In this document: positions 8,301-30,102 of the stretch, one piece after another
Position numbering within the stretch: position 1 is the stretch's first letter
Layout: every line of letters begins with the position of its first letter
Virus record (IMG/VR): IMGVR_UViG_3300042988_001945
Location: 1-31,065 of that record
DNA from: a virus
DNA: 31,065 nucleotides
Reading direction: 5' to 3' (one strand)
The notes under the pieces: model-generated
Seen by the model: only the letters and a program-made list of their open reading frames with translations
The model's database searches: none
Told to the model about the DNA's origin: nothing
Position numbers and translations under genes: made by a program

Positions 8301-9450
8301 AACGGAAGATGAGAAGAATAATAAGAACTGGCAAGGATTCCAACAATATTGGAATATGTTCCTTGATGGTGCGGTAGCTCAGGGATATAATAAAGACGAG
8401 GTAGATAAGATAAAAGACTGGGTAATCCAATACTTGGGATATTCATTCAACAAGTCTCACTCGCTTTCATATTCTTACTTGGCGATGCAAACGCTTTACT
8501 TAAAGCACTATTATCCTACTGAGTTCTATACAGCGCTTTTGAATCATCCTAAGTCTGGTCCAAAAGAGAAGCAGCAACAATGGATTGCATCAGCAATTGC
8601 ATCAGCAATGTCTAAAGGTATAGTCATAAAAAGACCTTCAAGAAAATCTGGATGGGAGTGGACAATGACAGGAGACCATGAAATATCAATGGGGTTCTCT
8701 GGAATCAACGGATTGGGTACTATAGCCTATGAGGAAATGCTTCAACTCATAGATGAAATACAAGTGAAAAAGGGTGAGCCAAAGAAAACTTTGGAAACAG
8801 TCAGCATGAGTACATTCATGAGACTTCCGTTTAGCAAGTTTACAAAGGCTGCATTCATGGCCTGTCTTAAGGCGGGGGTTTTTGATGATTGGGGAGATTC
8901 AAGAGAACAGCTTCTAGCTATGAAGCAGAAGAAGAAAAAGACAAAGGTAGCAGCAAACCAGGGAGTTCTTTTTGATATGAATGACCCTGTTTTCGACATT
9001 CCATTACAAAGAGAGGAAAACAAGTATCCAGTCACCACAGACGTTCAAAAGAGACTTGAGTTTATCGAGGTATGTAACTTTGACCTTGAGAAGATTAAAT
9101 TCATTCTTGATGTTAAGGCAGATATAAATAAAAAGTCAAAGAGAGAAAAGCCAGTTGATACAATCATTAACTTTGATGATAATGATTATTACATATTTGT
9201 GGTTGAGAGCTTCCAGCTTGGTCAAGGAAAGACTGGTAAGAGATTTCTAAAATTAGAAGTTGGAGATGGAATAAGTACAACAGTTCTTAGAGCCTTTGAG
9301 CCAACTGTTGATGACTTACTTCCAGTTTTAGTTGCAAACGGGATATATATAGCTGAGTTCATTAAAAATGAAAAAGGATATATCAATTTCAAGAGAGGTA
9401 CAAGAATATTAAGAGTGGATAAAATGTTGAGTAATGCGACTAACAATTGA
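5350..9450 (+). CDS. dnaE: DNA polymerase III alpha (family C) with N-terminal DEDDh proofreading exonuclease
   Basis: A 1366-residue replicative polymerase. Residues 1-190 are a DnaQ-type 3'-5' exonuclease with D6 and E8 (FDTETTG), D105 (HNISFDEN), H170 and D175 (AHDALADV). After an acidic linker, a PHP domain begins at about 228 (LHTFHSILDG, MAITDNSTLSG); its metal site looks incomplete, as in E. coli DnaE. The catalytic palm has GPARGSAAGS (about 604-613), PDIDIDF (645-651; D646, D648, D650) and D818 (LKLDRLKLETL). An OB-like domain lies at about 1270-1360. Ordinary DnaE lacks the exonuclease, and PolC carries it inserted inside the PHP domain, so this N-terminal arrangement differs from both. 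The gene heads an operon with an HNH nuclease and RNase H, and has its own Bacteroidota promoter and repeat leader. Confidence 0.95.
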   Translation: MYIVFDTETTGKAKSFSAPVDDFNNWPRLVQIAWKVFDKNGVEIDSQNLIIKPSGFIIPDDAIAIHRITNEIAKERGIPLRDALEKFSKVIKTSKYLIAHNISFDENVVGCEFLREGMRNCVPDIQHVDTMKLTTEFVAIPATRGRSGFKFPTQTELHQKLFGHAFEDAHDALADVTALSKIFFELQRRGILGFKEGEDEVSNDSLEEFVSDSREESVEVQSESIPFVPLGLHTFHSILDGAGSPDDYVKIAKSLGHTSMAITDNSTLSGTFDFYNKCKSKGINPIFGIEILLNDNIGRFEDKSIEGDNFKMKLFVKNEQGYYNLNHLLYLANTEGYHNKEGRIRTEWLLQNKEGLIASTSGLESKLASMVLRGKEIDAENYLNMLKTEFGDDLIIELKLNKFSAQKQYNNFLLKMMRKYNIMPVLSNDTYYPKREDSVLQDVVTAIKQQRPLSHSFLKENRELWYFNSNDFKEVNAKYGFNYPEQFIDLCLSNTFKVAEKCNFEFETGIEKYPRYEPTQDVIDYFKTDKPDEIIKKLSFAKLKQKIKKYQENGIVKMTEEKIQEYVDRLNYELQVIESKKMLDYFLVNWEIINFYRKQGYDIGPARGSAAGSLLSWCLDITKIDPIRFNLYFERFLNPERNSPPDIDIDFMTGTDDVTNNFLYDKYGRERVISVGTFGTFSEKNTIKDVVRAYRGKEATGFGSDVFALTEEMPDFLKYNDTLEHWFETWPDKPECSPRVRDWIRDPKNKEIIDVALKLQGNIRGIGQHAAGVVITPDVSWKYIPTNIIASNENIVTAFQEADKSGKDLSALGILKLDRLKLETLNVIKDTIALVKKHKGIDITEKVDYVDLEDQNLFIELRLGLNHGIFQFESSGMNNLIRGMQVDRFEELVACNALYRPGPMGIGAHEEFIRNKFNPEKIQLVHPALEPILRETNGVLVFQEQLMFIADRIGGMGLGKGDNLRRYMDKASKIIARSSAGEVLTEDEKNNKNWQGFQQYWNMFLDGAVAQGYNKDEVDKIKDWVIQYLGYSFNKSHSLSYSYLAMQTLYLKHYYPTEFYTALLNHPKSGPKEKQQQWIASAIASAMSKGIVIKRPSRKSGWEWTMTGDHEISMGFSGINGLGTIAYEEMLQLIDEIQVKKGEPKKTLETVSMSTFMRLPFSKFTKAAFMACLKAGVFDDWGDSREQLLAMKQKKKKTKVAANQGVLFDMNDPVFDIPLQREENKYPVTTDVQKRLEFIEVCNFDLEKIKFILDVKADINKKSKREKPVDTIINFDDNDYYIFVVESFQLGQGKTGKRFLKLEVGDGISTTVLRAFEPTVDDLLPVLVANGIYIAEFIKNEKGYINFKRGTRILRVDKMLSNATNN

Positions 9451-14062: not shown

Positions 14063-15556
14063 ATGCAAGAACAATCTAAAAAACTTAGTGAATTGAAAGA
14101 ACAGGCTAATAATGTTTTTCATGAAGCTTTGTTCAGTAATCCTTTTGCAAAAAAGAAAGAGCCAACTGGTCCTGTTTTTGAGGATGAGGTAATTGTTGTC
14201 AATAGAAGTCATAGTATATTATTTAAGCAAACAGGTAGCATTATTGTCAACCCCCTGCCAAATTATGGTGTTTGGGTTGAAGTAGACTGGTCAAGTCCAG
14301 AATTTAGCTGGCTATCAAATGCTGAGTTTAAAGCCTCTTCTGCAGAGATTCTTGGTAAAGGCAGCTCAAGAAAAATATCAAAAATAAAAGAATGTGACTG
14401 GGTTTCTGGAGATTTTAGAGGCGGAAAATTTATTAGAGGAGTCTTTAATGGAGGAACCTTCTTAGGCGAGTTTGGACCAGGCTCAACATGGTCTACAAAT
14501 CAAGCTAACTTTATTGATGGCAGAACTTATGAAACAGAAACAATACTTGGATTGCCAAATTTAACTAACCTAAGAAAAGATAAGTTCTCATTTAATTTTA
14601 TATCAGTTCCCCCTGCTCATAATATAACTATAGAGCTGGAGAGTGGATTAGTTCACGTAATATCTGTAATTAAGAGATTAGATTCAAAGAGTAGTACTTT
14701 TTCTTATAATGTAACAAATGGTGTTACTAATGAAACAAAATCTGTAAACTTAAGGTGGGGACAACTTAGGGGTCAAAACCAAAGTGAATTTAAGAGTAAT
14801 ACAGTATTTACTACGACATCAATTCCAAATATTTTCACTGATATTTTTGGGTTGACATTTGACAGCCCAATAAAAATGTTGACAGTTGATGTTAATACTA
14901 ATTTTGAAGCTCCAAAGTGGTCGGAGAAAGAGGAAACTCCAAAGGAATTGGCTACAAAGCAATTTGTATATGAATTGGATAAGATGCCGTTTCTTAAGAT
15001 TAAACAAATTCCAAGGTCAGCAAAGTCATCAGATAGCCAAAATCAATTATTCTTTAACTTCCCAGCTTCAGAGGACAAAAAGGGATTTGAAAGTGTGGTT
15101 AATTTCATAAATAAGGGATGGCTTGATTCTTATGTGAAAAGCATTAGAAAGGCTATGGATAATGGAATAGTAAGTGGCGCACCTTCTAATATGCCATATC
15201 TTGCAAATCTTATTGGAAAGCAAGAAAACATAAGCTCCGAGAATATAGATAAAAATATCTACAATTCATTATTGGGATTGGATATGTTCTTAAAGTATTT
15301 TGTGAATAACATGGTTTTGAGGGCTAAGCAATCTGGCCCAAATAGAGCTATTTATGATATTGATGACGAGGTTGGTAAAAAATTCATAAAGGATACAATT
15401 CTTTCTATGTTAGGTAAGGGTGAGGCTGAAAAGGTTTCGCAAAGCCCTGGTAAAAAACAACCCGTAAAGAAAGTTAAAAAAATTAGCATACCAGAATCAA
15501 AAGTCATAGTAGATAATATTTACAATATTTTATCTGAAAGGTTGAAACATTTATAA
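14063..15556 (+). CDS. Probable virion protein with Gly-Phe repeat segment, unknown
   Basis: A 497-residue protein. Residues 18-22 are VFHEA, shared with the protein at 11540. Residues about 105-140 carry a regular glycine/aromatic pattern (WVSGDFRGGKFIRGVFNGG, then TFLGEF) of the pentapeptide/MORN-like sort, which I recall from structural proteins of marine T4-like phages. Around these is beta-rich sequence up to about 290, then a more helical C-terminal half and a basic stretch (GKKQPVKKVKKISIP) near residue 470. No enzyme motif is visible. It lies between the baseplate pair and the tape measure region, so a baseplate or tail-tip component is the likely role. The family is not recognised. 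Confidence 0.7.
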   Translation: MQEQSKKLSELKEQANNVFHEALFSNPFAKKKEPTGPVFEDEVIVVNRSHSILFKQTGSIIVNPLPNYGVWVEVDWSSPEFSWLSNAEFKASSAEILGKGSSRKISKIKECDWVSGDFRGGKFIRGVFNGGTFLGEFGPGSTWSTNQANFIDGRTYETETILGLPNLTNLRKDKFSFNFISVPPAHNITIELESGLVHVISVIKRLDSKSSTFSYNVTNGVTNETKSVNLRWGQLRGQNQSEFKSNTVFTTTSIPNIFTDIFGLTFDSPIKMLTVDVNTNFEAPKWSEKEETPKELATKQFVYELDKMPFLKIKQIPRSAKSSDSQNQLFFNFPASEDKKGFESVVNFINKGWLDSYVKSIRKAMDNGIVSGAPSNMPYLANLIGKQENISSENIDKNIYNSLLGLDMFLKYFVNNMVLRAKQSGPNRAIYDIDDEVGKKFIKDTILSMLGKGEAEKVSQSPGKKQPVKKVKKISIPESKVIVDNIYNILSERLKHL

Positions 15557-16115: not shown

Positions 16116-16147
16116 AGCCGCCCTTTAATTTGGGCGGCTTTTTTTTT
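16116..16147 (+). terminator. Strong intrinsic terminator
   Basis: A perfect 8-bp GC-rich stem, AGCCGCCC (16116-16123) with GGGCGGCT (16132-16139), loop TTTAATTT, followed by eight T (16140-16147). It is the only canonical rho-independent terminator seen in the window and ends the unit before the tape measure gene. Confidence 0.92.
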
Positions 16148-16174: not shown

Positions 16175-19100
16175 ATGGCTGACAACATGGATGATAATAT
16201 AAAAAAAGCAAAAGCCTATAAGGATAGCTTAGATGCAATTAATAAGACCATTGAGAGTCAGAACAAATTAATTGGAAGTCTAGCTAATGAAATGGGTATT
16301 GCCTATACTTCATTCCAGACTCAGACGAAGAAAACGCAGGAAGATAGACTTAAGGAAATAAAACTTTTAAATGATGCCAAGAAATCTATAGAAGGCCAAA
16401 AAGCTGCTCTATCAGAAACATTCAATCAGGTTCTAAATTTAGATGGTGCATTTAAAACAGTTAGTTCTTCTTCATCCCTATTTGCTTCTTCTTTAGCCTC
16501 TATTGACGCTTCAAAAATAAGCCAGGACATTTCTAGCATAGAAGATGTTCAAACTAGAATAAACGAATTGCTAAAAGAGCAGGGAGAGTTGTCTAAAGAC
16601 CAATCAAAAGAATTTGAAGAGCTTAAGAAACTTCGTGATAAATACATGAAGGAAACAAGAGAGTTCCATAAAGATAGTGAAATTCATTTTGATAAGTGGT
16701 TGGATAATAATAAAGAGATTAGTGATATTCTTGATTCTTTACCACTCGATTCCATTTCTGATAAAATGGAATTCATTAAAAAGTTGCGAGAGGGTGATTT
16801 AGATGCGGCTGAACAGGTTCTTTCTACAGATTTACTTGATGCTAAGGCTAAAATAAAATTGCTTGGGCTAACTCAGAATATAGTAGATTCTCAGCAACAA
16901 TTTAATGAGTTGCAATCAGAAGCATCGAATGAGATGAAAACTCAGACAAGCTTGGCTAAAAATCTATGGAATCTTGTTAAGAATAATTCAGGAGACGCTT
17001 TTAATAGTATATGGTCTAGTATGAAAGAGACCAACCAGGCATTTAAAGATGCTCAAAAAGACTTCGGTCTAATGTTTGGTGGAGATGGCGCAAGTTATAA
17101 GGATATGGCTATGCTTACGAGTGAGGCGGCTAAATTCAATATGTCAACCAAGGATACCCTTGAGATGATGGGTCAACTTGGTGAGGAGCTAAGAACTACT
17201 GATACCAAGTACTTAGCAAGCGCAACAGAACATTTCATAGCAATTCAGAAAGCGACTGGAATTTCTTCAGAGGAAGTTAGTACTATAGCTGGTGAGATGA
17301 TGAGAGCTGGGCAGTCTGCTGGAGATGTTGAAAATTATATGGAAGGCGCAAATAAGATGGCGAAGCTGTTTGGGGTTAATTCTAAGAAAGTTCTCCAAGG
17401 TGTTGCTAAGAACATGGAAAAAATGCGTCAGATGGGTTTTACTGGTGGTGAGGAATCATTAACAAGAATGGTTGCTACCGCAGAAAGACTTAGAATGAAT
17501 GTTGATGAGATTTTTGATGTTGCACAAAGAGCTAGAAGTATAGAGGGGGCTATGGATATGGCATCTGAACTTCAACTCGCTGGTGGTTCATTTGCAAATA
17601 TAAATCCAATGGACCTTTTATCTGCTGCTCGTAAGGGTCCAGAAGAACTTCAAAAAATATTAACCCAAATGGGTGGTGATATTGGCTCTTGGAATAAGGA
17701 AACTGGAGAATTTCAGTTTGACCCAGTAGATGTAGACAGACTTCAGATGGTTGCCGATGCAACTGGACAATCTCTTGATAGTATTCAGAAGATGATTCAA
17801 AAGAATGCTGAAGATACTAGAAAGGAACAGTTTATGCCAGACCTTGAGATGGGAGAAATAATGGGTCCAGACGGAAAACCACTTGACCAAGGTATGATGA
17901 CAAATATGCTTAAGGATAGTCTTGACGTTGATGGTAAAATCATTGAAGGTAGCTTATTGGATAAGGCTGGTGTTAAAGATATTAAGGACTTGACCAGCGA
18001 GCAAGCTAAAAGTATAATGGAGGAATATGCGAATGACCAGAAGAGTCTTGAAGAGCAGGCAAAAAATAACCAATCATTCCAAGATAGTATAACAGCGTTT
18101 AAGGATTCTGTTATGAACTTATTTACTGTATTTCAACCGATACTTGAAGTATTCACATCAATTATTCAAAGTTTAAATGAGTTTGGTCCAGTTGGTAAAA
18201 TGCTTGGAGCAGCTCTTGTTGGATTTATAGCTTTTGGTCCTAAAATTATTGCTGGAATAGATGCTATGAAATCTGCATTTGGAGGTATCAAGGATATGTT
18301 TGGTAAGGGTAAGGATTTTGTTGACAAGATTAGAGGAAAAGAAATATCTAAGGAAGCTATTCCTGGCTCTGATGCTAAAGACCAAGCGCCAGGAGGTTCT
18401 GGTGGTGGTCTTAAGTCACTTGCTGATGGACTCAAGGAAATGGGCGGAAAGGGTGTTCTCCAAGGAATTGCTAATACAGCTCTTGCGGCTCCAGCGTTAT
18501 TATTGATGCTCCCAGCTATGCCTACATTATTACTTATGGCAGGTATAGGCGCTCTTGGTAAATTGGTTGAATTCGGATTCCAATCTGTTGCCAGAGGTAT
18601 TTCTGCAATGGGAGAGGCTAAGGGATTATTAAAAGGCGCTCTTGCTATGGTTATAATTGGCGCAGCATTAATTCCGTTTGCATTTGCTCTTCAGATGATG
18701 GCAGAAGTTGAATGGGGCACAATAGGAATGATGGTTGTAGGTATACTTGCGCTTGCTGCTATTACAGCGCTACTTGGATTTATAGCACCGCTTATGCTTG
18801 CTGGCTCAGTTGCTCTTGCTGCAGCTAGTGTTGGGCTACTTATTTTTGGTGCGGCAATAATGGTGTTTGCCTCTGCTTCTCAAATGATGCAGGGTATGAG
18901 TTTTGATTGGCTAGGAAGTCTTGGTTGGAACTTGTTAATTGCAGCCCCTGGATTACTACTTGGTGCAATGGCTTTATTAATGGCTGCTCCAGCCCTTATG
19001 CTTGGTTCACTTGCAATGATTCCTATGATGGGTGTCTTAGAAAAGGCATCAACAATTAACTGGACTTCATTTGCAGCTATGTCTTCAGCTCTTTACACAA

Positions 19101-19549
19101 TATCAGGCGCACTATTAGCATTTGGTGCCGCAAGTCTTGCTGGAGGTCTTATGGGCGCTCTTGGTGGTCTTCTTGGTGGCGGAGGTCCTCTTGCTACTCT
19201 TGAGACACTCGCTACACTAGCTATTGAAGCTGCAGCACCTCTTATGATGATGTCTGAAGCTATTGATGGACTTGCAGATGGCCTTGAGAAGCTTTCTGCT
19301 GCCTCTGCCTCACTTGATATGGAGAAGCTTGATATGCTTAGAGAGCTTGCCTGGTCTATGGCAATTGGTGCCGTTGGTGGTGGAATCATGGGAGACTCAA
19401 TAGATAAGATTGCAGAGGCTCTTATGAAGCTAACGAAGTCTGGAGAAGGCGGAGGTGGTGGAGGAACCAAGCAAATAGAAATAAATCTCAAGCTTAACGG
19501 TAGAGACCTTCAAAAAATTATAGTAGACGACACTTCGATTGTTTCTTAA
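16175..19549 (+). CDS. Tail tape measure protein
   Basis: A 1124-residue protein that sets tail length and is later ejected with the DNA. Residues 1 to about 260 are coiled coil (begins MADNMDDNIKKAK); the middle (about 290-680) is helical with many Met/Gln/Lys and repeated DxxxxAxxA patterns. Residues about 690-1060 are strongly hydrophobic, with several stretches of Ala, Leu, Met and Gly typical of tape measure membrane-inserting regions. A polyglycine segment (GEGGGGGGTKQ) precedes a short beta-like C-terminus (IEINLKLNGRDLQKIIV). The ATG at 16175 is chosen over an in-frame TTG at 16130, which lies inside the terminator hairpin. The gene has its own terminator-promoter boundary and precedes the other tube and baseplate genes. 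Confidence 0.88.
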   Translation: MADNMDDNIKKAKAYKDSLDAINKTIESQNKLIGSLANEMGIAYTSFQTQTKKTQEDRLKEIKLLNDAKKSIEGQKAALSETFNQVLNLDGAFKTVSSSSSLFASSLASIDASKISQDISSIEDVQTRINELLKEQGELSKDQSKEFEELKKLRDKYMKETREFHKDSEIHFDKWLDNNKEISDILDSLPLDSISDKMEFIKKLREGDLDAAEQVLSTDLLDAKAKIKLLGLTQNIVDSQQQFNELQSEASNEMKTQTSLAKNLWNLVKNNSGDAFNSIWSSMKETNQAFKDAQKDFGLMFGGDGASYKDMAMLTSEAAKFNMSTKDTLEMMGQLGEELRTTDTKYLASATEHFIAIQKATGISSEEVSTIAGEMMRAGQSAGDVENYMEGANKMAKLFGVNSKKVLQGVAKNMEKMRQMGFTGGEESLTRMVATAERLRMNVDEIFDVAQRARSIEGAMDMASELQLAGGSFANINPMDLLSAARKGPEELQKILTQMGGDIGSWNKETGEFQFDPVDVDRLQMVADATGQSLDSIQKMIQKNAEDTRKEQFMPDLEMGEIMGPDGKPLDQGMMTNMLKDSLDVDGKIIEGSLLDKAGVKDIKDLTSEQAKSIMEEYANDQKSLEEQAKNNQSFQDSITAFKDSVMNLFTVFQPILEVFTSIIQSLNEFGPVGKMLGAALVGFIAFGPKIIAGIDAMKSAFGGIKDMFGKGKDFVDKIRGKEISKEAIPGSDAKDQAPGGSGGGLKSLADGLKEMGGKGVLQGIANTALAAPALLLMLPAMPTLLLMAGIGALGKLVEFGFQSVARGISAMGEAKGLLKGALAMVIIGAALIPFAFALQMMAEVEWGTIGMMVVGILALAAITALLGFIAPLMLAGSVALAAASVGLLIFGAAIMVFASASQMMQGMSFDWLGSLGWNLLIAAPGLLLGAMALLMAAPALMLGSLAMIPMMGVLEKASTINWTSFAAMSSALYTISGALLAFGAASLAGGLMGALGGLLGGGGPLATLETLATLAIEAAAPLMMMSEAIDGLADGLEKLSAASASLDMEKLDMLRELAWSMAIGAVGGGIMGDSIDKIAEALMKLTKSGEGGGGGGTKQIEINLKLNGRDLQKIIVDDTSIVS

Positions 19550-19595: not shown

Positions 19596-22500
19596 ATGAT
19601 GGAAGACGGTTTCCCTTTATTTGACCCAAATGATGAGGCCTCAAGGCAAGAGGAGAGACTCAGAGAATACTATGAGGAATTCTCTGCGAATGCCAGGAGA
19701 AAGTTGTTATCAAAAACGATAACAAGGCCTACAACGGTTTATGATGTTCTGTATCCACAGACAAGGGAGGCTTTATTGTCTAAAAATGTTCCATTTAATA
19801 CAGACCTTGAAGAATCTTCAAAGGAAATAAGGGATAGGCTTGTTGCCAAATTAGTAGTTGATGAGACTGATTTGGATAAGATTTCTGAAAACTTCAGAAA
19901 ATCACTTCTTGCAAGAGCAAAGATTCAAGATGATAATAAGAATTTATCACAGCAAAGTGATATTTTCAGAAAAGATATGATTTCTAAAAATGTGTCAGGC
20001 TCTATGAGTATTGATGATTATTCAGAGCAAGCAAGAATAGAGAATAAGTCAAAAAATAGACCAAACCTATCACTAAATAAGAAGTTTGACGATATTTCTG
20101 ATGCAAGTAGAACATCTTCTACATCAAAGAATGTTCCTAAGGGTCAGGATTTGTTGAGAGATTCTGAATTTTATAGAAATCAATTCAGAAAGAATGACAT
20201 TAACAAGAATGTTCCTTCTAATTATGATTTTGACAAAAATTCAGCTGCATTCAGAAGAAATAATCTTAGTAAAAACGCAGAAAAAGAAGTTTCAGACTTG
20301 CTTTCTGATTCAAAATTACTAAGAGATGCCAATATTTCTAAGAATGCAAAGGAGACAGCAGACCTTGAATCATTATCTGAAGGCTATAGAGATAATTCTG
20401 TGTCAAAGAATGTTCCTAAGAGTCAAGATTTACTAAAGTTTTCTGATGAAATAAGAAATCAGTTCAGGAAGAATGACATCAACAAAAATGTTCCTTCTGA
20501 TTTTGATATAGAAAGAGACAGTTCTAAATTTAGAAGAGATAATTTAGCTAAAAATGTTAAAAACAGAAAGGGAGACCTTCAGGATGATTCTGATATTTAT
20601 AGAAAAAGTAATCTAAATAAGAATTCTGAAGGACAAACTACTGCAGATATAGACTTGTTATCTGAAGAAGCTAGACTAAACAATACATCAAAAAACCTAT
20701 CTAGGACAACTGACCTTGAAAAGGATTCTATAGAATTTAGAAAGGGTGATTTGTCATTAAATGTTAAGTCGGATTCTGACCTGGAAAGTGAATCAAACAT
20801 CTACAGAAAAGATGACCTGTCAAACAACAGACCTAAGACAACAGACCTTGAATCTGAGTCATCAAAATACAGGGCTGATGACTTATCATTGAATGTTACA
20901 AAGGTAACTGATATTCAGATAGACTCAGTTCCATTTAGGGATGGTAATCTCTCTCTTAATAAGCCTGTTGAAACAAACATTCAGAGAGATTCTGTTGAAT
21001 TTAGATTCAATAACCTATCTAATAATGAGCCAAAGACCTCAAATCTTGAAACTGATTCAGTTCCATTCAGATTAGAGGATTTGTCTAATAATAACCCAAG
21101 GGTTACTGACCTTGAAACTGACTCAGTTCCATTTAGGAAAAATGTTCAGTCATTTAATAAACCAAGATTTACTGACTTGGAGGTAGACTCAGTTCCATTT
21201 AGGGAAAGTGACTTGTCATTCAACGCCCCTAAGTTTACGAATCTTGAAACCGATTCTGTTCCATATAGGCTGAGTGACCTATCATACAACGTTCCTATAA
21301 TAACAGACTTGGAAGATGATTCAATTCCATTTAGGGAAGATGACTTATCATTTAATGTTCCTATAGTTACAAATTTGATTGTCGATTCTACGCCTTATTT
21401 GTACAACAACCTGTCTTCAAATATTCCGATTGATAGCGACCTGGAAGTTGACTCAATTCCATTTAGAGATAATTTGTTGTCTAATAACGTTCCATCATTT
21501 AGTAATCTCTTGACGGATTCTCAACCATTTAGAGATGACAACTTGTCTTCTAATGTATCTAATACAGGTGACCTAGCCACGGATTCAATTCCTTTTAGAA
21601 ATGACAACTTGTCTTCAAATATTCCTATCGGTTCAAATTTGCTTGCAGATTCGATTCAATTTAGGGAAGATAACCTGTCATCAAATATTTCTGTAACATC
21701 TGATTTGCTTACAGATTCTGCTGATATTAGGGATAGCAATATTGCCAAAAACGCTGGTTTTGGATTGCTTGGCGTAAACATTGATGGTGCTGGAACAAGC
21801 GCTTTCCTCGGAATATCAAGAGTATTTACTCAAGGTATACTTGTGAGGACTTTGTTATTATCTAAGAATAAACCAAAAAACTCTAATTTGCTGGATGATT
21901 CTGATGCTTTTAGAGAAAATAACAAGCTACCAAATAGATGGCAGGTTAATAATAATGAATATGCGAACAATGGTCAGAATGCTACTCTAGCATCTCTTAT
22001 GCAGGGTGACTACAACAATGACCAATATCATGATTATAATTCGATATTTGCTCCAGTTGGAGGAAATCCAGTTAGCTATGGCGTTTTCTCTACTGATACA
22101 TATAGAAGAAATGTATCTACAAAGCTTCAGCAGATGTATGGAACCTCTGTTGGAGATGAGTTTCCTAGTTCAAGAGTTGATGTAAGGTTGAATACTGCAT
22201 ACTATTCTGTGGATACAGTTAGCCCTAATGGTGGTGGATTCATAAATTCAAGCTATAATCAAGATAGCTATATCCCATATGTGAGTGGTTATATTACATA
22301 CACAATTAAGAACTATAACATTGAAAGGAATGCATTTAATCTTGAGCAAAGACAGACTGGAGACCCATCTACTCTTGCGACACTCCAAGAATATGATGCA
22401 CAAGGATTCCAGGATTTGATTAGTAAGACAATCGGTTCATTCAAAGGTGTATTCCAGACTAGAACTTTAACTACTCCCGCTGATATAATTCAGAAAAATG

Positions 22501-23795
22501 GTGGAACTTACTATAATGGAGGAAACAGGGATACTGATATAATGAGGCCTGGTGCTGAAGGGACAGAGCTTGGCTCTGCAGAATCTATGATGGGTAAGAC
22601 AGCTATTGGAAATCCATTTGAGGATTCAGATTTCTTAGCAGGAAGAAGGGGTGTTAGACACGTTGTAAATACAATTAAGTCTAGTAGCTCTCCATTAGCT
22701 GCAAACTTTGACCCTCAGAATAATAGAGTTTACATAACTGGTAAGAATGAAGATGGTACTGAAAGAAAGAGTAGACAAAAGTTTACCATAGCAAATCCTT
22801 ATGCTCCAAGCGGAGCTAAGCAACTTGTATTCTACCTAAGAAATTATGCAAATAAGAATCCAAATCAGGACTTACAGGAAATATATTTGCCACCATATAT
22901 CAAGAGTATACAGAATACTGAAACAGCAAATTGGAATACTGTAGATTTCCTTGGTAGACCAGAATCGGTATATACATACAATACTTCAAACAGAAGTGCA
23001 TCTATTTCTTTTTACATATTGACAGATTACACTCAGAGGGTTGTTGTTGGAACTAATTGGGGACAAGATAATACTCCAGAATTGGAAGCATTTATTGATA
23101 GACATATAACAAACCCAGTTATAGATGTGAATCTTGGTGAAAAAAACAAAACCGACAAAGAGCTTCAAGAAAGGAATCAAAAAAATGAAGAGAATGTAGC
23201 GGCTAATTCTCCAGAAACATCTGAGAACCAAAGTAAGATTATATCAATTCAAACTGAGGCTAATAAATTCCAAAAAAAGGTGATTGACAACAAGGCTCAA
23301 GAATTTGTTAAGGCGAATTATAAATATTCAGAAACTAATTCAAAAAATACGAATACATATGCTGATGTTGTGAATGGGAGCAGTCAGGATACACTTGAAA
23401 GGATTAGACAAATGAATGAAAACTTCATATTCCAACCAGCATATTTCTCTGGAGATAAAGTTGATTTTATTACGAGGATGGAATTCCTTTCTAAGATGAC
23501 GAGGCCAGCAAATGCATTTGCTGATAATACTGGTTTCTCATTTACCAGCCCCCCTGTTTGTCACATTAAGCTTGGAACTTTTTGGGACCATGACATCATA
23601 GTTAATAGTGTTAGCTTTGACTACACAGATGCTCCATGGACTCTTGATGATGGTACAGACGGCATGGTACAACCTATGTGGGCCCTTGTAACTATAGACT
23701 TTAATATTATAGGACCTTATGGTGGCGGAGCAGGAAGACCTCCATTGGCTGGAGATATTGGTGGTATGTATAGCAAAAGAACAATGGAGGGTTGA
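19596..23795 (+). CDS. Giant repeat protein with C-terminal baseplate/tube-junction domain
   Basis: A 1399-residue protein in two parts. Residues about 37-714 are some thirty tandem units of about 22 residues, consensus near DLSxNxPxxTDLExDSxPFRxx; early units use SKNVP, later ones SxNIP and DSVPFR. One more unit follows at about 754-775. Residues about 780-1399 are non-repetitive. The last 130 residues (ITRMEFLSKMTRPANAFAD, SPPVCHIKLGTFWDHDIIV, SFDYTDAPW, PMWALVTIDFNIIGPYGG) fit the tube-like fold of T4 gp48/gp54-type proteins, which join tail tube to baseplate, and the position after the tape measure agrees. A coiled segment (about 1185-1250) interrupts that domain. The repeats are unlike gp48/gp54 and may form an extended rod. 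A second ATG follows at 19599; either start is possible. The domain call is by pattern only. Confidence 0.8.
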   Translation: MMEDGFPLFDPNDEASRQEERLREYYEEFSANARRKLLSKTITRPTTVYDVLYPQTREALLSKNVPFNTDLEESSKEIRDRLVAKLVVDETDLDKISENFRKSLLARAKIQDDNKNLSQQSDIFRKDMISKNVSGSMSIDDYSEQARIENKSKNRPNLSLNKKFDDISDASRTSSTSKNVPKGQDLLRDSEFYRNQFRKNDINKNVPSNYDFDKNSAAFRRNNLSKNAEKEVSDLLSDSKLLRDANISKNAKETADLESLSEGYRDNSVSKNVPKSQDLLKFSDEIRNQFRKNDINKNVPSDFDIERDSSKFRRDNLAKNVKNRKGDLQDDSDIYRKSNLNKNSEGQTTADIDLLSEEARLNNTSKNLSRTTDLEKDSIEFRKGDLSLNVKSDSDLESESNIYRKDDLSNNRPKTTDLESESSKYRADDLSLNVTKVTDIQIDSVPFRDGNLSLNKPVETNIQRDSVEFRFNNLSNNEPKTSNLETDSVPFRLEDLSNNNPRVTDLETDSVPFRKNVQSFNKPRFTDLEVDSVPFRESDLSFNAPKFTNLETDSVPYRLSDLSYNVPIITDLEDDSIPFREDDLSFNVPIVTNLIVDSTPYLYNNLSSNIPIDSDLEVDSIPFRDNLLSNNVPSFSNLLTDSQPFRDDNLSSNVSNTGDLATDSIPFRNDNLSSNIPIGSNLLADSIQFREDNLSSNISVTSDLLTDSADIRDSNIAKNAGFGLLGVNIDGAGTSAFLGISRVFTQGILVRTLLLSKNKPKNSNLLDDSDAFRENNKLPNRWQVNNNEYANNGQNATLASLMQGDYNNDQYHDYNSIFAPVGGNPVSYGVFSTDTYRRNVSTKLQQMYGTSVGDEFPSSRVDVRLNTAYYSVDTVSPNGGGFINSSYNQDSYIPYVSGYITYTIKNYNIERNAFNLEQRQTGDPSTLATLQEYDAQGFQDLISKTIGSFKGVFQTRTLTTPADIIQKNGGTYYNGGNRDTDIMRPGAEGTELGSAESMMGKTAIGNPFEDSDFLAGRRGVRHVVNTIKSSSSPLAANFDPQNNRVYITGKNEDGTERKSRQKFTIANPYAPSGAKQLVFYLRNYANKNPNQDLQEIYLPPYIKSIQNTETANWNTVDFLGRPESVYTYNTSNRSASISFYILTDYTQRVVVGTNWGQDNTPELEAFIDRHITNPVIDVNLGEKNKTDKELQERNQKNEENVAANSPETSENQSKIISIQTEANKFQKKVIDNKAQEFVKANYKYSETNSKNTNTYADVVNGSSQDTLERIRQMNENFIFQPAYFSGDKVDFITRMEFLSKMTRPANAFADNTGFSFTSPPVCHIKLGTFWDHDIIVNSVSFDYTDAPWTLDDGTDGMVQPMWALVTIDFNIIGPYGGGAGRPPLAGDIGGMYSKRTMEG
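19704..21920 (+). repeat. About 30 coding tandem repeats of 66 bp (22 residues)
   Basis: Core array 19704-21737 with an isolated final unit at 21855-21920. Unit length is mostly 22 codons, sometimes 23-26. There is a higher-order duplication: the four-unit block from about residue 177 (begins STSKNVPKGQDLL) is repeated from about residue 270 (begins SVSKNVPKSQDLL), including the shared NQFRKNDINKNVPS. Units 20-24 are the most alike (ETDSVPFR, TDLE), suggesting later local expansion. At DNA level the units have diverged, so the array is under protein-level constraint rather than being a fresh satellite. Confidence 0.88.
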
Positions 23796-23834: not shown

Positions 23835-24140
23835 ATGGGATTCAATTTTTATAAGTATTTGATTCAAGATGGTAAGATGAGTAACATGCCACCTATAAGT
23901 ATTGAAAAAAGGAGTACTGACAAGTATGTTTTATACAATTCTCAAAATAACAGACTTGATAATATTGCTGGAGATATTTATACAGATGAAACCCTTTGGA
24001 GGTTAATCTTATGGGCCAATGAGCAGTATTTTATAGAATTTGACATTCCAGATAACACCGTAATAAGAGTCCCGTTTCCAATGCAAGATGTGTTGAATGA
24101 AGTAAACTCAAAAATTATTGCACTAAAAAATAAAGGATAA
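23835..24140 (+). CDS. Baseplate wedge protein, gp53/LysM-like
   Basis: A 101-residue protein. The pattern GDIYTDETLWRLILWANEQY, then FDIPDNTVIRVPFP resembles the LysM-like core of T4 gp53-type baseplate proteins (a Trp-containing helix followed by a strand ending in IP). It starts with GFNFYKYLIQ. The gene lies between the tube-junction protein and the hub, which suits a small wedge or hub-connector protein, and its stop overlaps the hub start (TAATG). An AT-only upstream region (TATTATTATAATTATATAAG) is a poor match to the virion promoter motif. The assignment is by short pattern and position. Confidence 0.65.
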   Translation: MGFNFYKYLIQDGKMSNMPPISIEKRSTDKYVLYNSQNNRLDNIAGDIYTDETLWRLILWANEQYFIEFDIPDNTVIRVPFPMQDVLNEVNSKIIALKNKG

Positions 24141-27100
24141 TGCCTAGAGTAGAACCTGCTGAATTTCATATGAAAGACCTTTTTATTGACGCAGAACTTA
24201 TCGTCAGTAAGGATGGTACTATATACGATTTTCTTGGAAGGAAGCTTTTTAGTACGTCTTTCTTTAGGAATGATACTGGTTTTGGTATCACTAATATTGA
24301 AATTGAAGTAAACACATCTTTACAACCTATAGTATCAATAACTTTTAAAGATTTATATGGTAAGACAATTTTTGGAGGGCAAAAAAGAATAGAAAGTGAG
24401 TTAGATGGAGTTCAATCTCTTGATTACTCTGTTTTATTTGACTGGCCACCTCCAAAGTTTATTTTTGCATTCAAGGGTTATCTTGGAAAATCTGTTACTT
24501 GGCTTTTAAATCTTAAAAAAACATCTACATCATTTAACTCTAGTGATGGTAGTTATGAGATTAAGTGTGAATTCGTTCCTAATCAGTGGGGTTTTTTTGC
24601 TGATATACCTATGTTATTTCTTTTGGCAGCCAAACCACTAAGAAGAGAGAGGCTTGGCAAAAATGCTTCTGCAGAACAAAAGAGGTCAATAACAAGTGTT
24701 TTTGACTTGATAAAAATAGGAAAGCAAGTGGAGGTGAAGACTCAGGAAACGACTAAGGATTTTGATAAGCTTGTAAAAAAGCTAGGAGCTTTAAAGTCAA
24801 ACATAACGACTTCAATTGTAGGTTCGAGACTTAATTCTTTTGGGGAGACTATTGACGGAATTGTAAACAACATACAGGTTCAGGGTTTTAAGTCAATAAC
24901 TATTCCTAATATTGGGGATTTGGAAGGCTCTGTAAATACCGAAGAGAAGATAAATAAGAAATCATTAACACCATCTTCTTTAAGTAAGCTTAATACATAT
25001 TTACTTTTTTCATTGAAGTATCCAGGTTCTGAAAATATTTCTACAAACTCAAATCTTGATGGTCTAAGCGATGAGGCTATTGCACAGGCTAAGAGTAAGG
25101 TAATAAATGTTATAAATGAAAATCTTAGAAACGTTGAAAAAGAGATACAGAGAAGAGTTTATAATAGTTCTAAAACAAAACTGCAGAAAATAACTATTGG
25201 AGAGATTTTTAAGCAATTAGCAAAAGATGCTGCTTTTATAATGGGTAGTATATTGGACTATGGATTAGAAGGTTCAAATGTTCCTGAAAGGAGTGGTGCT
25301 GATATTGATGATAAAATAATTGGTAAAGCTTTCCCCCTTTATATCAATAAAGATGGGGAAGAAGTTCCTGCAACTAGCGAGGCTTCTGGATTGTCTATTG
25401 GGGTGGACTCAATAGAAATGGATTTTGTAAGAAAATTTATAAATGCTATTAGTGAGGGTATTGCAAAAGACTTACCAACTTCTGATTTATCTGGATTGGC
25501 TCAGAGTGACACTCTTAAGACAAGGATAAATAATGCAGAGATGGCTCAATCTAATCCGTATAAGCCAAATTATCAAAATATTGCTTCAAATATATTGGTT
25601 AGAAGTGGTATTGTAGCTTACACCACAACGAGTTATGACCCTAATTATCCAGGAGACTGGGGGAATGAATGGTTTAGAATTGACAATGATGGTTCTGAAG
25701 GAATATCTGAGCTTGCAAATTTAGATTCTGAAAACATAACTGATGATATTTTAAACTCACTTTCAGATGTTGACCTTTTGTTGCTTAAAAGGTTTTGTAG
25801 ATTTTTCTTGAAATTTTATGATAGGTCTGGAGAGTTTTTATTAGATTCAGAAGGAAATGAGGGTAGTGCTATATCTTCAGATGCAGCAAGTTCGTATGAA
25901 TACCCAGTATCTATAGATGATAATCAGACATTAACTTTTTCTCAAGTTTTTTCAACTTTAAATAAACCATTTGTGGTAGAAGAGGGGGTGTCTGAGCTTG
26001 AGCCTCAAGAATTTGGGGCAATGTCACAAGGTTCTGTTACAAATAATGTTGAACACCCTTTGTCATTTGTAGATACATCTAATTATACGGCAAAAAGAAT
26101 AGTTAACAACGGTATTGCATATATGATTCCAAACATTAATAATGATGAAAATTATGTTATTGTTTTTGAGGGAAATATGAATCAAACCGCTCAGGGTGTC
26201 AATAGTAGTAAGAGTGATTCTGAATTAAAGAATTCAGAGAATAAGGACTCTGGAGATGTACTAGGATATGTACCGCTTGAGGCGTTTAAAGATTCCGAGG
26301 GAGAAGACCTCGGTAGATTTGAGGTTTTATTAGAATATGTTCAAGAGGGAAAAGCTTTGTTTGGAAATAAAATGAGAGACCCAAATAGAACATTCTACAC
26401 AAATTCGGATGATAGTCAAGAGTTTCAAGGTTTTCTTTGGAATAAATTGCAGCCTAATGGAGAATTGGCTATTTTTGAAAGTGTAGAGCAAGCTGTTGAT
26501 AAGGGTTTTAATGATAGAAATGATTTTGCTTTATTAGGGGATATTGGATTTACAGCGTATGCTGGATTTGAAGATAATTCATATGTTTTTGCTCCTTTTG
26601 GAGATGGAAGCTCTGTGTCTGTTGATGATGATAGAGCAATAAATCAAAGGGTTTATATAAGAAGGATTTGTGAATCAGTATTAAAAAGAATAAACAAGAT
26701 TGAGGATGAAAAAAATCAAGTAATTGGTTCTGTATTAGGTAAGGCTGGGGAACAGGAAAATGCTCTATACAAACAAATGCACAATTTATACCACCAATGG
26801 CAAGCGATTGCCTACAAGGGCTCATCTAATATGGATAGCATAAGGAATGGAAAAGGCGGACAAGCTTTAGATGTAAGTAAGAATTTAGCAACCGAGTTAG
26901 AAAAAAGATATGGAGGAAGTCATGTTGATTTGAATATTAATGAGACTGAGACAGACGGACTTCCAGATGGCTCTTTTATTTATGAATTCCCTCTACAGAG
27001 GATAACTGGAAAAAATCTTGGAAAGGATAATAAGCCAATAAATACAAGAAACTCCATTATCAACATAGAGCCAATGTATAAATTAAATGCTGACACAAGT

Positions 27101-28420
27101 GTGCTTAACATAATTCAGCAGGTGTGCACAAAAAACAACTTTTTGTTTGTTCCAATTCCTGGTAATGCTTCGTATCTTAATGTTCAGGATATATACACCC
27201 CTAATCCTCAGAGTATAGAAATTGAGCCGATGAATTATTTTCATGTATTGTTTACGCCTACACCAGAATCAAGGTCTAAGATAGGTTCGAACGAACCTTT
27301 ATCTTTAGCTGAAAACCATACAGCCTATATGGCTAATTCGTTTTCTATAAAATATGGAAGCCCAGATAACCAAATTGTAAGCGATGTTCAAGTGGGTACA
27401 GATGAGAATAAGACAACTGCTGAGAGTATTGTAAACCTCCAGAGGTTGGTTGATAATGAAAACCAGAATAAGAAGGTTACAACAGACTGCTCTGTATTAC
27501 CCGTTATGGAAGGTCGCTCATACACCGCTTCAATAGAAATGCTTGGTAATGCTCAGGTATATCCTATGCAATTTTTCTACCTAGAAAACTCTCCACTTTT
27601 TGGGGGTCTTTATCAGGTGATGAAGGTAAAACATTCAATAAATCCTAATAACATGAAAACAAATGTTGAAGGAATTAGGATGAGATTTAGTCCAGGTAAT
27701 GGTTATGGGTCTATTAAGCCAATTACGCTTGAAACATTTGAAGACTTAGGGCCAGTTGGTTCAGCTGTTCCACTTTCTCAAGAAGAAATAGATAGATTGA
27801 AGAACTTCAGCACATCTACAACAAGTGGAGGAGGGGGGTCAACTACATCTACTGGTGGCTCAGCTGTTAAAGCTTCTAAGACAATGGTGGAAGTTTTGCT
27901 TTCAGCTGGGTATAAGAGAGGAACTATTGAATATGAGTTGGCATTGATTATAGGGACAAAAGAAGGATATAGAAAAGGTTCTAAGAATAGGCCTTCAAGA
28001 AATAATAATCCAGGAAACCTGGCGTGGAGTAGTTCGTTTAAATCTATTGATAAAGACTCTGTATTAGAGCCACCGAATTCAAAAGGTGAAAGAAGGTTTG
28101 CGCATTTTTCTACTCCAGAGTTAGGGACAGTAGCTTTAGTTGGTAAAATAAAAGGCTGGGCAAAAGGAAGTTACCCAGCTACAATAGTAACTGGAACAAG
28201 TAAAAAAGCAAAGGATTATAGGTCGAAATATTCCGTTCCTAGTTCTTTGGATGGTATTGCAAATAAAGGTGTAAAGCTGAGTATAGAGCAATTCTTTTAT
28301 ATTTATGCTCCACCAAGTGAAAATAACACAGAAAGCTATATTAATAGCGTGGTAAGGTCTTTATCTGTAAACTTTCCAGGTATTACAAGAAAATCATTAA
28401 TATATAATTATTTGTCATAA
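24140..28420 (+). CDS. Baseplate hub protein with C-terminal peptidoglycan hydrolase domain
   Basis: A 1426-residue protein. The N-terminal region (ITNIEIEVNTSLQPIVSITF, DLYGKTIFGG, FDWPPPKFIFAFKGYLGKS) and the later PMQFFYLENSPLFGGLYQVMKVKHSI segment fit tail-hub proteins of the gp27/gpD type, separated by a long region with many acidic loops. A Gly/Ser/Thr linker (about 1225-1247) leads to a lysozyme-like domain, about 1250-1420: ALIIGTKEGY with the presumed catalytic Glu, RNNNPGNLAW, FAHFSTPELGTVALVGKI and FFYIYAPPSENNTESYI, the pattern of virion-associated muramidase/transglycosylase domains. Such a protein would form the puncturing hub and cut peptidoglycan during entry. T4 also has a lysozyme in its hub, but in a separate gp5 chain. 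Overlaps the preceding gene by one base. Confidence 0.83.
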   Translation: MPRVEPAEFHMKDLFIDAELIVSKDGTIYDFLGRKLFSTSFFRNDTGFGITNIEIEVNTSLQPIVSITFKDLYGKTIFGGQKRIESELDGVQSLDYSVLFDWPPPKFIFAFKGYLGKSVTWLLNLKKTSTSFNSSDGSYEIKCEFVPNQWGFFADIPMLFLLAAKPLRRERLGKNASAEQKRSITSVFDLIKIGKQVEVKTQETTKDFDKLVKKLGALKSNITTSIVGSRLNSFGETIDGIVNNIQVQGFKSITIPNIGDLEGSVNTEEKINKKSLTPSSLSKLNTYLLFSLKYPGSENISTNSNLDGLSDEAIAQAKSKVINVINENLRNVEKEIQRRVYNSSKTKLQKITIGEIFKQLAKDAAFIMGSILDYGLEGSNVPERSGADIDDKIIGKAFPLYINKDGEEVPATSEASGLSIGVDSIEMDFVRKFINAISEGIAKDLPTSDLSGLAQSDTLKTRINNAEMAQSNPYKPNYQNIASNILVRSGIVAYTTTSYDPNYPGDWGNEWFRIDNDGSEGISELANLDSENITDDILNSLSDVDLLLLKRFCRFFLKFYDRSGEFLLDSEGNEGSAISSDAASSYEYPVSIDDNQTLTFSQVFSTLNKPFVVEEGVSELEPQEFGAMSQGSVTNNVEHPLSFVDTSNYTAKRIVNNGIAYMIPNINNDENYVIVFEGNMNQTAQGVNSSKSDSELKNSENKDSGDVLGYVPLEAFKDSEGEDLGRFEVLLEYVQEGKALFGNKMRDPNRTFYTNSDDSQEFQGFLWNKLQPNGELAIFESVEQAVDKGFNDRNDFALLGDIGFTAYAGFEDNSYVFAPFGDGSSVSVDDDRAINQRVYIRRICESVLKRINKIEDEKNQVIGSVLGKAGEQENALYKQMHNLYHQWQAIAYKGSSNMDSIRNGKGGQALDVSKNLATELEKRYGGSHVDLNINETETDGLPDGSFIYEFPLQRITGKNLGKDNKPINTRNSIINIEPMYKLNADTSVLNIIQQVCTKNNFLFVPIPGNASYLNVQDIYTPNPQSIEIEPMNYFHVLFTPTPESRSKIGSNEPLSLAENHTAYMANSFSIKYGSPDNQIVSDVQVGTDENKTTAESIVNLQRLVDNENQNKKVTTDCSVLPVMEGRSYTASIEMLGNAQVYPMQFFYLENSPLFGGLYQVMKVKHSINPNNMKTNVEGIRMRFSPGNGYGSIKPITLETFEDLGPVGSAVPLSQEEIDRLKNFSTSTTSGGGGSTTSTGGSAVKASKTMVEVLLSAGYKRGTIEYELALIIGTKEGYRKGSKNRPSRNNNPGNLAWSSSFKSIDKDSVLEPPNSKGERRFAHFSTPELGTVALVGKIKGWAKGSYPATIVTGTSKKAKDYRSKYSVPSSLDGIANKGVKLSIEQFFYIYAPPSENNTESYINSVVRSLSVNFPGITRKSLIYNYLS

Positions 28421-28440: not shown

Positions 28441-30102
28441 ATGTTCAGGATTTGCAGAATAATAGTCGAAACAGAGGAACAAGGAAATTTTCTAAAGGAG
28501 TATCTTGGAGGATACCCTGTTGAGATTACTCAACGGCTTGACCTTGATGGTGTCGTATCTCAAGAAATTGGCAAAGGTATTCCAACCCTATTTATAGGAT
28601 GGAATTCTGTTAAGCATAGATTCCCAGAACAAAAGATAAGTGAAAATAAGGTCATGAACAATTTGTTCTGGACATATAATGAATCTGAGTGTAATCAGAT
28701 TGATGGTCAGAGTTATCATAGGAATATTGAGGAGTTTGTAAATGAAAATCTTAAGAAATGGCTTCCAAGTGACTTCACCATCTATGATTCTATTTTGCAT
28801 GGTGACTTTTATAAATTTATAAACAAGAACATAACTTTATCACCAGGATTTATAACCTATGCGCACTTTAGCAAAGGTGCTATGTACATGAGAAATGGTG
28901 ATAAGAATTTTATTGCAAACATTAAGAGTCTGTGGTTAACTGAGGGTAATTATAAGGAGCTTGTTACAGATGTTCTCAATAGCATGAATTGCATGGTTTA
29001 TTCATATGATGGGATTGAAGAGTATGTAAACCTTGACAGGCTTGAAAATGTATTAGCGCTTGATATTATACGCTGGGTTAAGTTTGGCGTAGAAACTCCG
29101 ATTAAGTATTTCCAGATAGTTCCTCACATGGATGTGAATAAGTACATTCCATTCTTGATGAGTAAGATACCATTCGATTCTCTTGAGATGGATGAGGAAG
29201 AAGAGGTGTACTTCAATAGAATGTGTGAGAGGGATAAGATAAATAGATGGATGTCCACTAGGTATATTTCATTTTCTTATGATTTTAAGAAGAAGCTTGA
29301 CTTCTTGAATCGTGACTACGCAAAACTAGCTAAGATAAATTACTCAACAAAGAGAACGATTACTGGAAGGATAACATCTGTAGATAGATATAACCCACAA
29401 AACCTATCAAAGTCAAACGATGAGAGGGCTATGATAGTTTCAAGATTTAGAGGTGGTCAGATTTATCAATTTGATTTTACGTCTTTCGAGATAAGAATTG
29501 CACTTTATCTTTGTGAGGATAGTGATTTCATTGAACAGTATTACGACAAAGATATTCATGCTGAAACAGCAATGATTATCTTCGAATCAATGGACTTCAC
29601 AGAGGAACAGAGGAATATTGCAAAGGATGTTAACCACACTGTGCTATATGGTGCTGGTGAAGCTACTATTTTGAAGAAACTTGAAGGATTGCCTTATCCT
29701 CATGAGAAGATGCTTAGAGTTAAGGAGTTTATGGCCCCAATATTTAAAAAGTCAAAGGAGCTTGCCGATTTGGCAGAAAACCAGGGCTACATAATAAATA
29801 AGTGGGGTTCCATTATTAAGCCAGAAAAGTCATATGCAGGATTTAATAACTATATACAGTCAACAGCAGCAGAAATAATTGTTGATAAGGTGATAGAAAT
29901 AAAACAAATCCTTAAGGGCAAGAAAAGCCAGTTCATGTTTCAAGTGCATGACTCACTTGTGCTTGACATACATCCAGATGAACTATACGTAGCTGATGAA
30001 ATCGCTAAGGCCATGTCCTATCATAGAGGTATGGCATTCTCTGTTAACTTTAAGCACGGCCCTAATTACAAGGATTTATCATCCGAGTCTGTTTACTTCT
30101 AA
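28441..30102 (+). CDS. Family A DNA polymerase without exonuclease domain
   Basis: A 553-residue polymerase. The C-terminal half has TGR (308-310), motif A DFTSFEIR (D345, E350), motif B RNIAKDVNHTVLYG (R391, K395, H399, Y403) and motif C QVHD (501-504, catalytic D504). The usual phenylalanine of motif B (E. coli F762 position) is histidine here. The N-terminal 250 residues show none of the DEDD exonuclease motifs and are not recognised. It is the second polymerase in the window, next to a zinc protein and a RecA-like recombinase, so gap filling, repair or recombination-linked synthesis is likely, with the family C enzyme as replicase; that split is inference. It begins just after a TAnnTTTG box. 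Confidence 0.93.
   Translation: MFRICRIIVETEEQGNFLKEYLGGYPVEITQRLDLDGVVSQEIGKGIPTLFIGWNSVKHRFPEQKISENKVMNNLFWTYNESECNQIDGQSYHRNIEEFVNENLKKWLPSDFTIYDSILHGDFYKFINKNITLSPGFITYAHFSKGAMYMRNGDKNFIANIKSLWLTEGNYKELVTDVLNSMNCMVYSYDGIEEYVNLDRLENVLALDIIRWVKFGVETPIKYFQIVPHMDVNKYIPFLMSKIPFDSLEMDEEEEVYFNRMCERDKINRWMSTRYISFSYDFKKKLDFLNRDYAKLAKINYSTKRTITGRITSVDRYNPQNLSKSNDERAMIVSRFRGGQIYQFDFTSFEIRIALYLCEDSDFIEQYYDKDIHAETAMIIFESMDFTEEQRNIAKDVNHTVLYGAGEATILKKLEGLPYPHEKMLRVKEFMAPIFKKSKELADLAENQGYIINKWGSIIKPEKSYAGFNNYIQSTAAEIIVDKVIEIKQILKGKKSQFMFQVHDSLVLDIHPDELYVADEIAKAMSYHRGMAFSVNFKHGPNYKDLSSESVYF

Follow-up and report, generated by a model that had tools for sequence, protein, structure and literature searches.

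We analysed a 31,065-nucleotide stretch of DNA from an uncultured virus (IMG/VR record IMGVR_UViG_3300042988_001945, positions 1 to 31,065; hereafter the window) that contains a tail locus. The phage is, as placed by its terminase and portal, a T4-like myovirus, and among cultured phages it is closest to Flavobacterium phage immuto and Microcystis phage Mel-JY01. Downstream of the gene for the tape measure protein (TMP) lies an open reading frame whose boundaries agree exactly with those of an initial annotation of the sequence, and whose product carries a long array of 22-residue units ahead of a C-terminal part resembling tube initiators. Among relatives, the number of units rises with the length of the TMP. 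The features of the two genes are as follows.

19596..23795, + strand: array-bearing tube-initiator-like protein, 1399 aa (open reading frame; homologs occupy the same slot, flanked by the TMP gene on one side and the gp53-like and hub genes on the other, in more than 25 viral contigs)
19596..19694, + strand: N-terminal cap, residues 1-33; cap and first unit (EEFSANARRKLLSK..VYDVLYP) are both highly conserved in alignment A1, and this sequence served as a search pattern
19695..21803, + strand: array spanning residues 34-736 and made of 32 units of 22 residues with the consensus (D/N)DLSxNxPxxSDLExDSxxFR (profile scan, shuffles, length, AlphaFold2)
20115..20393, + strand: higher-order duplication of four units (93 residues), first copy, residues ~174-266 (46% identity at offset 93)
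20394..20672, + strand: the same duplication, second copy, residues ~267-359
21753..21920, + strand: conserved junction at the array end, GFGLLGVNxxGAGTSxFLGxSRVFTQGILxRxLLLSKN, near-invariant in alignments A1 and A6
22830..23717, + strand: beta core like that of tube initiators (residues ~1079-1153 and 1288-1374), interrupted by a helical insert (~1180-1276) (AlphaFold2 model B, Foldseek, alignment A3)
16175..19549, + strand: TMP, about 1124 aa (matches the tape measure family PHROG 167 at E 8.9e-10), the protein whose length scales with the array; 16175 is the probable start, and the reading frame opens at 16130

The 22-residue array

The length of the array divided by 22, with degenerate units counted in, corresponds to 31.95 units, so that the initial estimate of about thirty repeats over some 680 residues lies close to the 32 units and about 700 residues found here. 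A unit profile with position-specific scores, trained on family members, detects 27 units above 12 bits between residues 59 and 774, nearly all at exact 22-residue spacing. Most real units score 25-55 bits, whereas the best scores in 200 shuffles of the protein average -1.3 bits and reach 15.9 bits at most. TRF detects part of the array in the DNA with a period of 66. The four-unit duplication described initially was recovered: residues around 160-260 are 46% identical to the segment 93 residues downstream, compared with 14% at the next best offset, and each copy contains one 26-residue variant unit (at residues 174 and 267). The gradient of unit types that had been noted along the array is also real, with mean net charge per 22 residues changing from +0.8 in the first third to -2.4 in the last third, and it has the same direction in five relatives. 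It is a gradient of charge and sequence only, where at least two functional zones had been suggested.

AlphaFold2 modelling of residues 1-600 with a 25-sequence alignment predicts, at low confidence, one helix of ~13-16 residues and a linker of 6-8 residues per unit, with units that do not pack on each other (pLDDT 59, pTM 0.17). In this model the unit is a short helix and linker without a fold of its own. The DLSxN likeness to leucine-rich repeats was considered and rejected: the position three before the conserved N does hold a hydrophobic residue, but the position five before it holds D or N, the predicted elements are helices rather than one strand per repeat, and Pfam gave no leucine-rich repeat match. 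Library searches also gave no match of the array protein to a TMP family, the TMP being encoded by the neighbouring gene.

The C-terminal part and the gene slot

The gene sits between the TMP gene and wedge and hub genes, in the window and in its relatives, which is the slot of tube initiators in contractile tails. The downstream genes are:

23835..24140, + strand: gp53-like baseplate wedge protein, 101 aa (PHROG 7145, E 3.2e-8)
24140..28420, + strand: hub-position protein with a C-terminal lysozyme/transglycosylase-like domain (PHROG 7182 and 873), used to find relatives

A sheath gene was not seen in the 31-kb window, which is a fragment; the contractile sheath family PF04984 is present in six of nine relatives' records, in five of them above the cut-off.

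In T4, gp48 and gp54 form hexameric rings at which growth of the tube starts (PMC8718954). The initial assignment of the C-terminal part to this type of protein is supported at the level of the predicted fold. The AlphaFold2 model of residues 557-1399 is weak (pLDDT 56, pTM 0.35) and contains a beta core matching initiators. Its best Foldseek matches in the PDB are contractile injection system chains from the baseplate (Anabaena 7b5h_AK, E 5.4e-5; 6j0n_b; 9qgl; 6rao_G) and the 'baseplate-initiators' of cyanophage A-1(L) (8kea_P/R), with TM-scores by target for these tube-type beta fold matches of only 0.34-0.49. In a viral structure library several matches carry annotations as tube proteins of contractile injection systems. 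Sequence-profile searches of PDB chains with the family gave no convincing match. The window protein thus resembles T4 gp48 and gp54, the Afp7/Pvc7-type adaptors of extracellular contractile injection systems and the A-1(L) protein in the tube-type beta fold of its C-terminal part, without sequence similarity detectable by profile searches to the PDB initiator chains. Known initiators are compact, the matched PDB chains being mostly of 138-285 residues, whereas the window protein adds the ~700-residue N-terminal array and a variable region of ~300 residues.

Relatives carrying the array

With the whole window protein as query, cultured phages, Pfam and the PDB returned nothing and viral contigs gave six short peptides. 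Relatives were reached first through the hub gene and then through family profiles, and about 25 full-length array-bearing relatives were collected. They have in common the N-terminal cap (..EEFSxxxRxxLLSKN..VYDVLYP), the array, the junction (GVNxxGxGTSxFLGxS) and the C-terminal domain. The genome collection yielded one short contig from a metagenome-assembled genome (L030), probably a piece of phage DNA that ended up in the bin of a deltaproteobacterium. This contig and three others (L022, L023 and L028) stop within the array, probably at assembly breaks arising from near-identical repeats, and phages with long arrays may be under-represented in short-read data. Near-identical repeats may have been collapsed in the assembly of L029, and L040 has an atypical array-end motif.

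In nine genomes, including the window, the number of units (N) is held at 31.7-32.0 (TMPs of 1124-1148 aa) although the arrays are only 35-78% identical, a pattern which points to selection on unit number. This constancy bears on the idea that the array is a baseplate whisker, arm, fibre or wrapped belt through which the phage would contact or sense its host. The only direct support for such a role is that the repeats are in tandem and sit on a protein of the baseplate; N is frozen in these genomes instead of variable, and scaling with TMP length (see below) is unexpected of an external arm. The initial annotation had held that its reading would fall if the units matched an established repeat of fibres or adhesins; profile searches of Pfam, PHROGs and the PDB for such a match found none. 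We regard a host-contact role as very improbable, and nothing we found favours the whisker and wrap-around functions suggested initially.

Unit number scales with TMP length

A comparison of repeat counts with TMP lengths, as proposed initially, revealed a close relation. Across 25 relatives, with N taken as array length over 22 and degenerate units included, TMP = 312.8 + 25.35 (s.e. 0.39) x N (r = 0.997; Spearman 0.78); some TMP start codons were assigned by rule, which alters lengths by at most about 15 residues. With independent contrasts, calculated on a tree built from the C-terminal domain, the slope is 25.7 (r = 0.994), and clade means of N and TMP length give r = 0.998 (n = 11). The C-terminal part of the array protein served as a control, and its length shows no scaling with N (contrasts r = 0.05; Pearson -0.08). 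Sheath open frames stay at 786-879 aa among the relatives.

Two sister genomes, L113 (from L059) and L114 (from L056), encode TMPs of 2505 and about 2900 aa that consist largely of 56-residue repeats. These TMPs differ by 395 residues (7.05 x 56) and the corresponding arrays, of 87.0 and 101.0 units, differ by 14.0 units, which against seven TMP repeats amounts to 28 TMP residues per unit. The two TMPs (reverse complement, L113 3869-11386 and L114 1380-10103) contain roughly 25 and 32 hydrophobic 56-residue tandem repeats. Both giant-TMP phages have two neighbouring tail-sheath matches (L059 record, 209930-213114; L056 record, 125291-128213), whereas the other matching relatives have one. A general tendency of big genomes to encode big proteins was rejected as an explanation of array size: L040, a 388-kb relative, has about 35 units and the 135-kb record of L056 has 101.

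The relation might instead reflect no structural coupling, with neighbouring array and TMP sequences drifting together in related genomes and the giant pair driving the fit. The strongest leverage does come from the L113/L114 lineage, and the slope is lower in the short-TMP members. However, the contrasts correct for descent, and the relation persists when the pair is removed (n = 23, r = 0.81; contrasts r = 0.80, p = 6e-6). Moreover, the pair itself differs by 7 TMP repeats and 14.0 array units, scaling is confined to the array and absent from the remainder of its protein, and two unrelated arrays (see below) give similar ratios. We regard drift without structural coupling as improbable, if slightly less so than a host-contact role. 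Among the short-TMP members, the partial correlation of N with TMP length given the C-terminal part is 0.77; the periodicity of their TMPs is too weak for comparison with the array. No earlier report of such co-scaling was found in a literature search that mostly missed subscription journals, including the older T4 tail-length genetics.

Same-slot proteins without the array or with other arrays

The same C-terminal domain is encoded in several hundred stretches from uncultured T4-like phages outside the array clade. The outgroup proteins examined lack the 22-residue array, yet many start with a single copy of the motif (MPSPLSFDSTENFRKKLLVKNLQPY; MSNLNFTNTEILRNSLLSRNL). The array thus appears to have been amplified in tandem from a single N-terminal docking motif that is still single-copy in relatives. 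A tblastn search of the outgroup proteins against cultured phages gave no match. Two outgroup phages with short TMPs of 617-636 aa (L175 5170-11265 and L191 7211-13312) encode a further array type in the same protein, in which about 5-8 units of ~50 residues (INQYGP..NEGEYxxxDxIGSxLE) follow the single N-terminal motif.

An array of 44-residue units, unrelated to the 22-residue one, occupies this slot in Mel-JY01 and in six uncultured records. The Mel-JY01 protein (WWT39329.1, hypothetical protein) shares the slot, the C-terminal domain and a long N-terminal array with the window protein, but its 44-residue unit (SSxFDWDGxxxxAPxVxYFD..GFHxFAQxYDTKYI) is unrelated in sequence; in its clade the slope amounts to 24-25 TMP residues per unit (n = 4). 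The uncultured megaphage LR756508 (484 kb) likewise has a same-slot protein with the C-terminal domain and an array of about 53 units, but these are acidic, unrelated and 16-17 residues long (VPxEDExFxHEExNE). Its TMP is 1602 aa, for which the 22-residue regression would predict about 51 units. A viral scan for relatives of this protein found none. Alignment A3 relates the C-terminal part of the window protein to those of immuto, Mel-JY01 and LR756508.

The immuto protein (YP_010114648.1, 716 aa) has the slot and the C-terminal domain but not the 22-residue array, though its TMP is 1006 aa. Similarly, the same-slot proteins of L125-L127 (446-479 aa) are without an array and accompany TMPs of 1166-1186 aa. 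The idea that arrays are needed for long tails was rejected on these grounds.

A possible axial arm

TMPs extend 0.145-0.15 nm per residue (PMC5099701), and the pitch of tube rings is 40.6 Å in T5 (PMC5717097) and 42.8 Å in lambda (PMC8718954), which together correspond to 27-29 TMP residues per ring. Set against the 25-28 TMP residues per array unit, we infer approximately one unit per tube ring, whether units are of 17, 22 or 44 residues. By our own estimate, a 22-residue unit could reach up to about 48 Å (14 x 1.5 + 8 x 3.4).

The best explanation, which we hold to be a reasonably probable one, is a tube initiator with an axial arm that extends from the tube base and docks one unit per ring. 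The protein would lie where tube and baseplate join in a contractile phage of T4-like type, with its N terminus drawn out into an arm up the tail. Six arms would rise from the initiator ring along the tail, each 22-residue unit would dock on one tail ring, and the unit number would have to match the number of rings, itself set by the TMP. A position on the tube surface beneath the sheath is favoured over one in the lumen, because an anchored lumen arm would obstruct DNA. Of the functions suggested initially, a length-setting element comes nearest, in that N tracks TMP length; a primary ruler is unlikely, since relatives without the array have equally long TMPs. More tentatively, and with the balance somewhat against it, the arm may be a second ring-matched ruler or rib, in which six full-tail arms with one repeat per hexameric ring act with the TMP to fix or check length, a device that would have arisen at least three times with unrelated repeats. 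The array resembles repeat-bearing TMPs (for example TP901-1, with 11/18-residue repeats) in having a length in register with the tail and tandem repeats that allow length change. In contrast to these, it belongs to a separate gene product fused to the tube base, with an ordinary TMP encoded next door.

Several observations weigh against the arm. The value of 25-28 TMP residues per unit rests mainly on one lineage of two genomes, the slope falls to 13-16 in the 23 short-TMP members, and in these the lengths of array and C-terminal part correlate too (0.52). The regression in the Mel-JY01 clade has n = 4. The intercept of 313 aa would mean either that the array leaves uncovered a length of TMP equal to about 12 rings, or that those residues lie outside the tube. 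The charge gradient is without explanation under the arm, and the long TMPs of immuto and L125-L127 suggest that an arm would be dispensable.

The main rival predicts co-scaling equally well. Here the array would be a sleeve, a covalently linked polyvalent chaperone that coats the TMP with one unit per ~28 TMP residues and keeps it extended and soluble until displaced by tube subunits, a role played by separate tail assembly chaperones in siphophages, where chaperones coat the TMP (PMC9022992). The two array units per 56-residue TMP repeat in L113 and L114, whose TMPs are very hydrophobic, would fit such a sleeve. Against this, the units are low in hydrophobic residues (29-39%), the array is absent from relatives with similar TMPs, three unrelated unit types would all need to bind TMP, and the link to a tube initiator anchors the array in the virion. 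We consider a sleeve unlikely, though well ahead of the other alternatives to the axial arm.

Other genes of the locus

Residues ~1281-1410 of the hub-position protein (24140-28420) form the terminal lysozyme/transglycosylase-like domain, which resembles tail injection transglycosylases; the C-terminal ends differ in other relatives. Some relatives have two or three tandem paralogs as hub-position genes (L004 5527-18622; L003 3569-12191). The protein encoded upstream of the TMP gene in the window (14063-15556) has a short pentapeptide-like stretch, SGDFRGGKFIRGVFNGGTFLGEFG. Adjoining the tail genes, the window also encodes an apparent polymerase III alpha subunit of the DnaE type that includes an exonuclease domain, together with a DNA polymerase that matches PHROG 17 (5350-9450 and 28441-30102).

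Significance

Tail length has been ascribed to a single ruler, the TMP, whose arrangement within the tube is poorly resolved. If the axial arm exists, it would be an axial tail element so far undescribed, and its repeat count, at nearly one per ring, would allow the number of rings to be counted from sequence. It would also provide a genetic handle on the coupling of tube, TMP and tail length, as units could be added or removed in either gene. The unrelated repeats found in the same slot suggest a need that recurs in some T4-like lineages.

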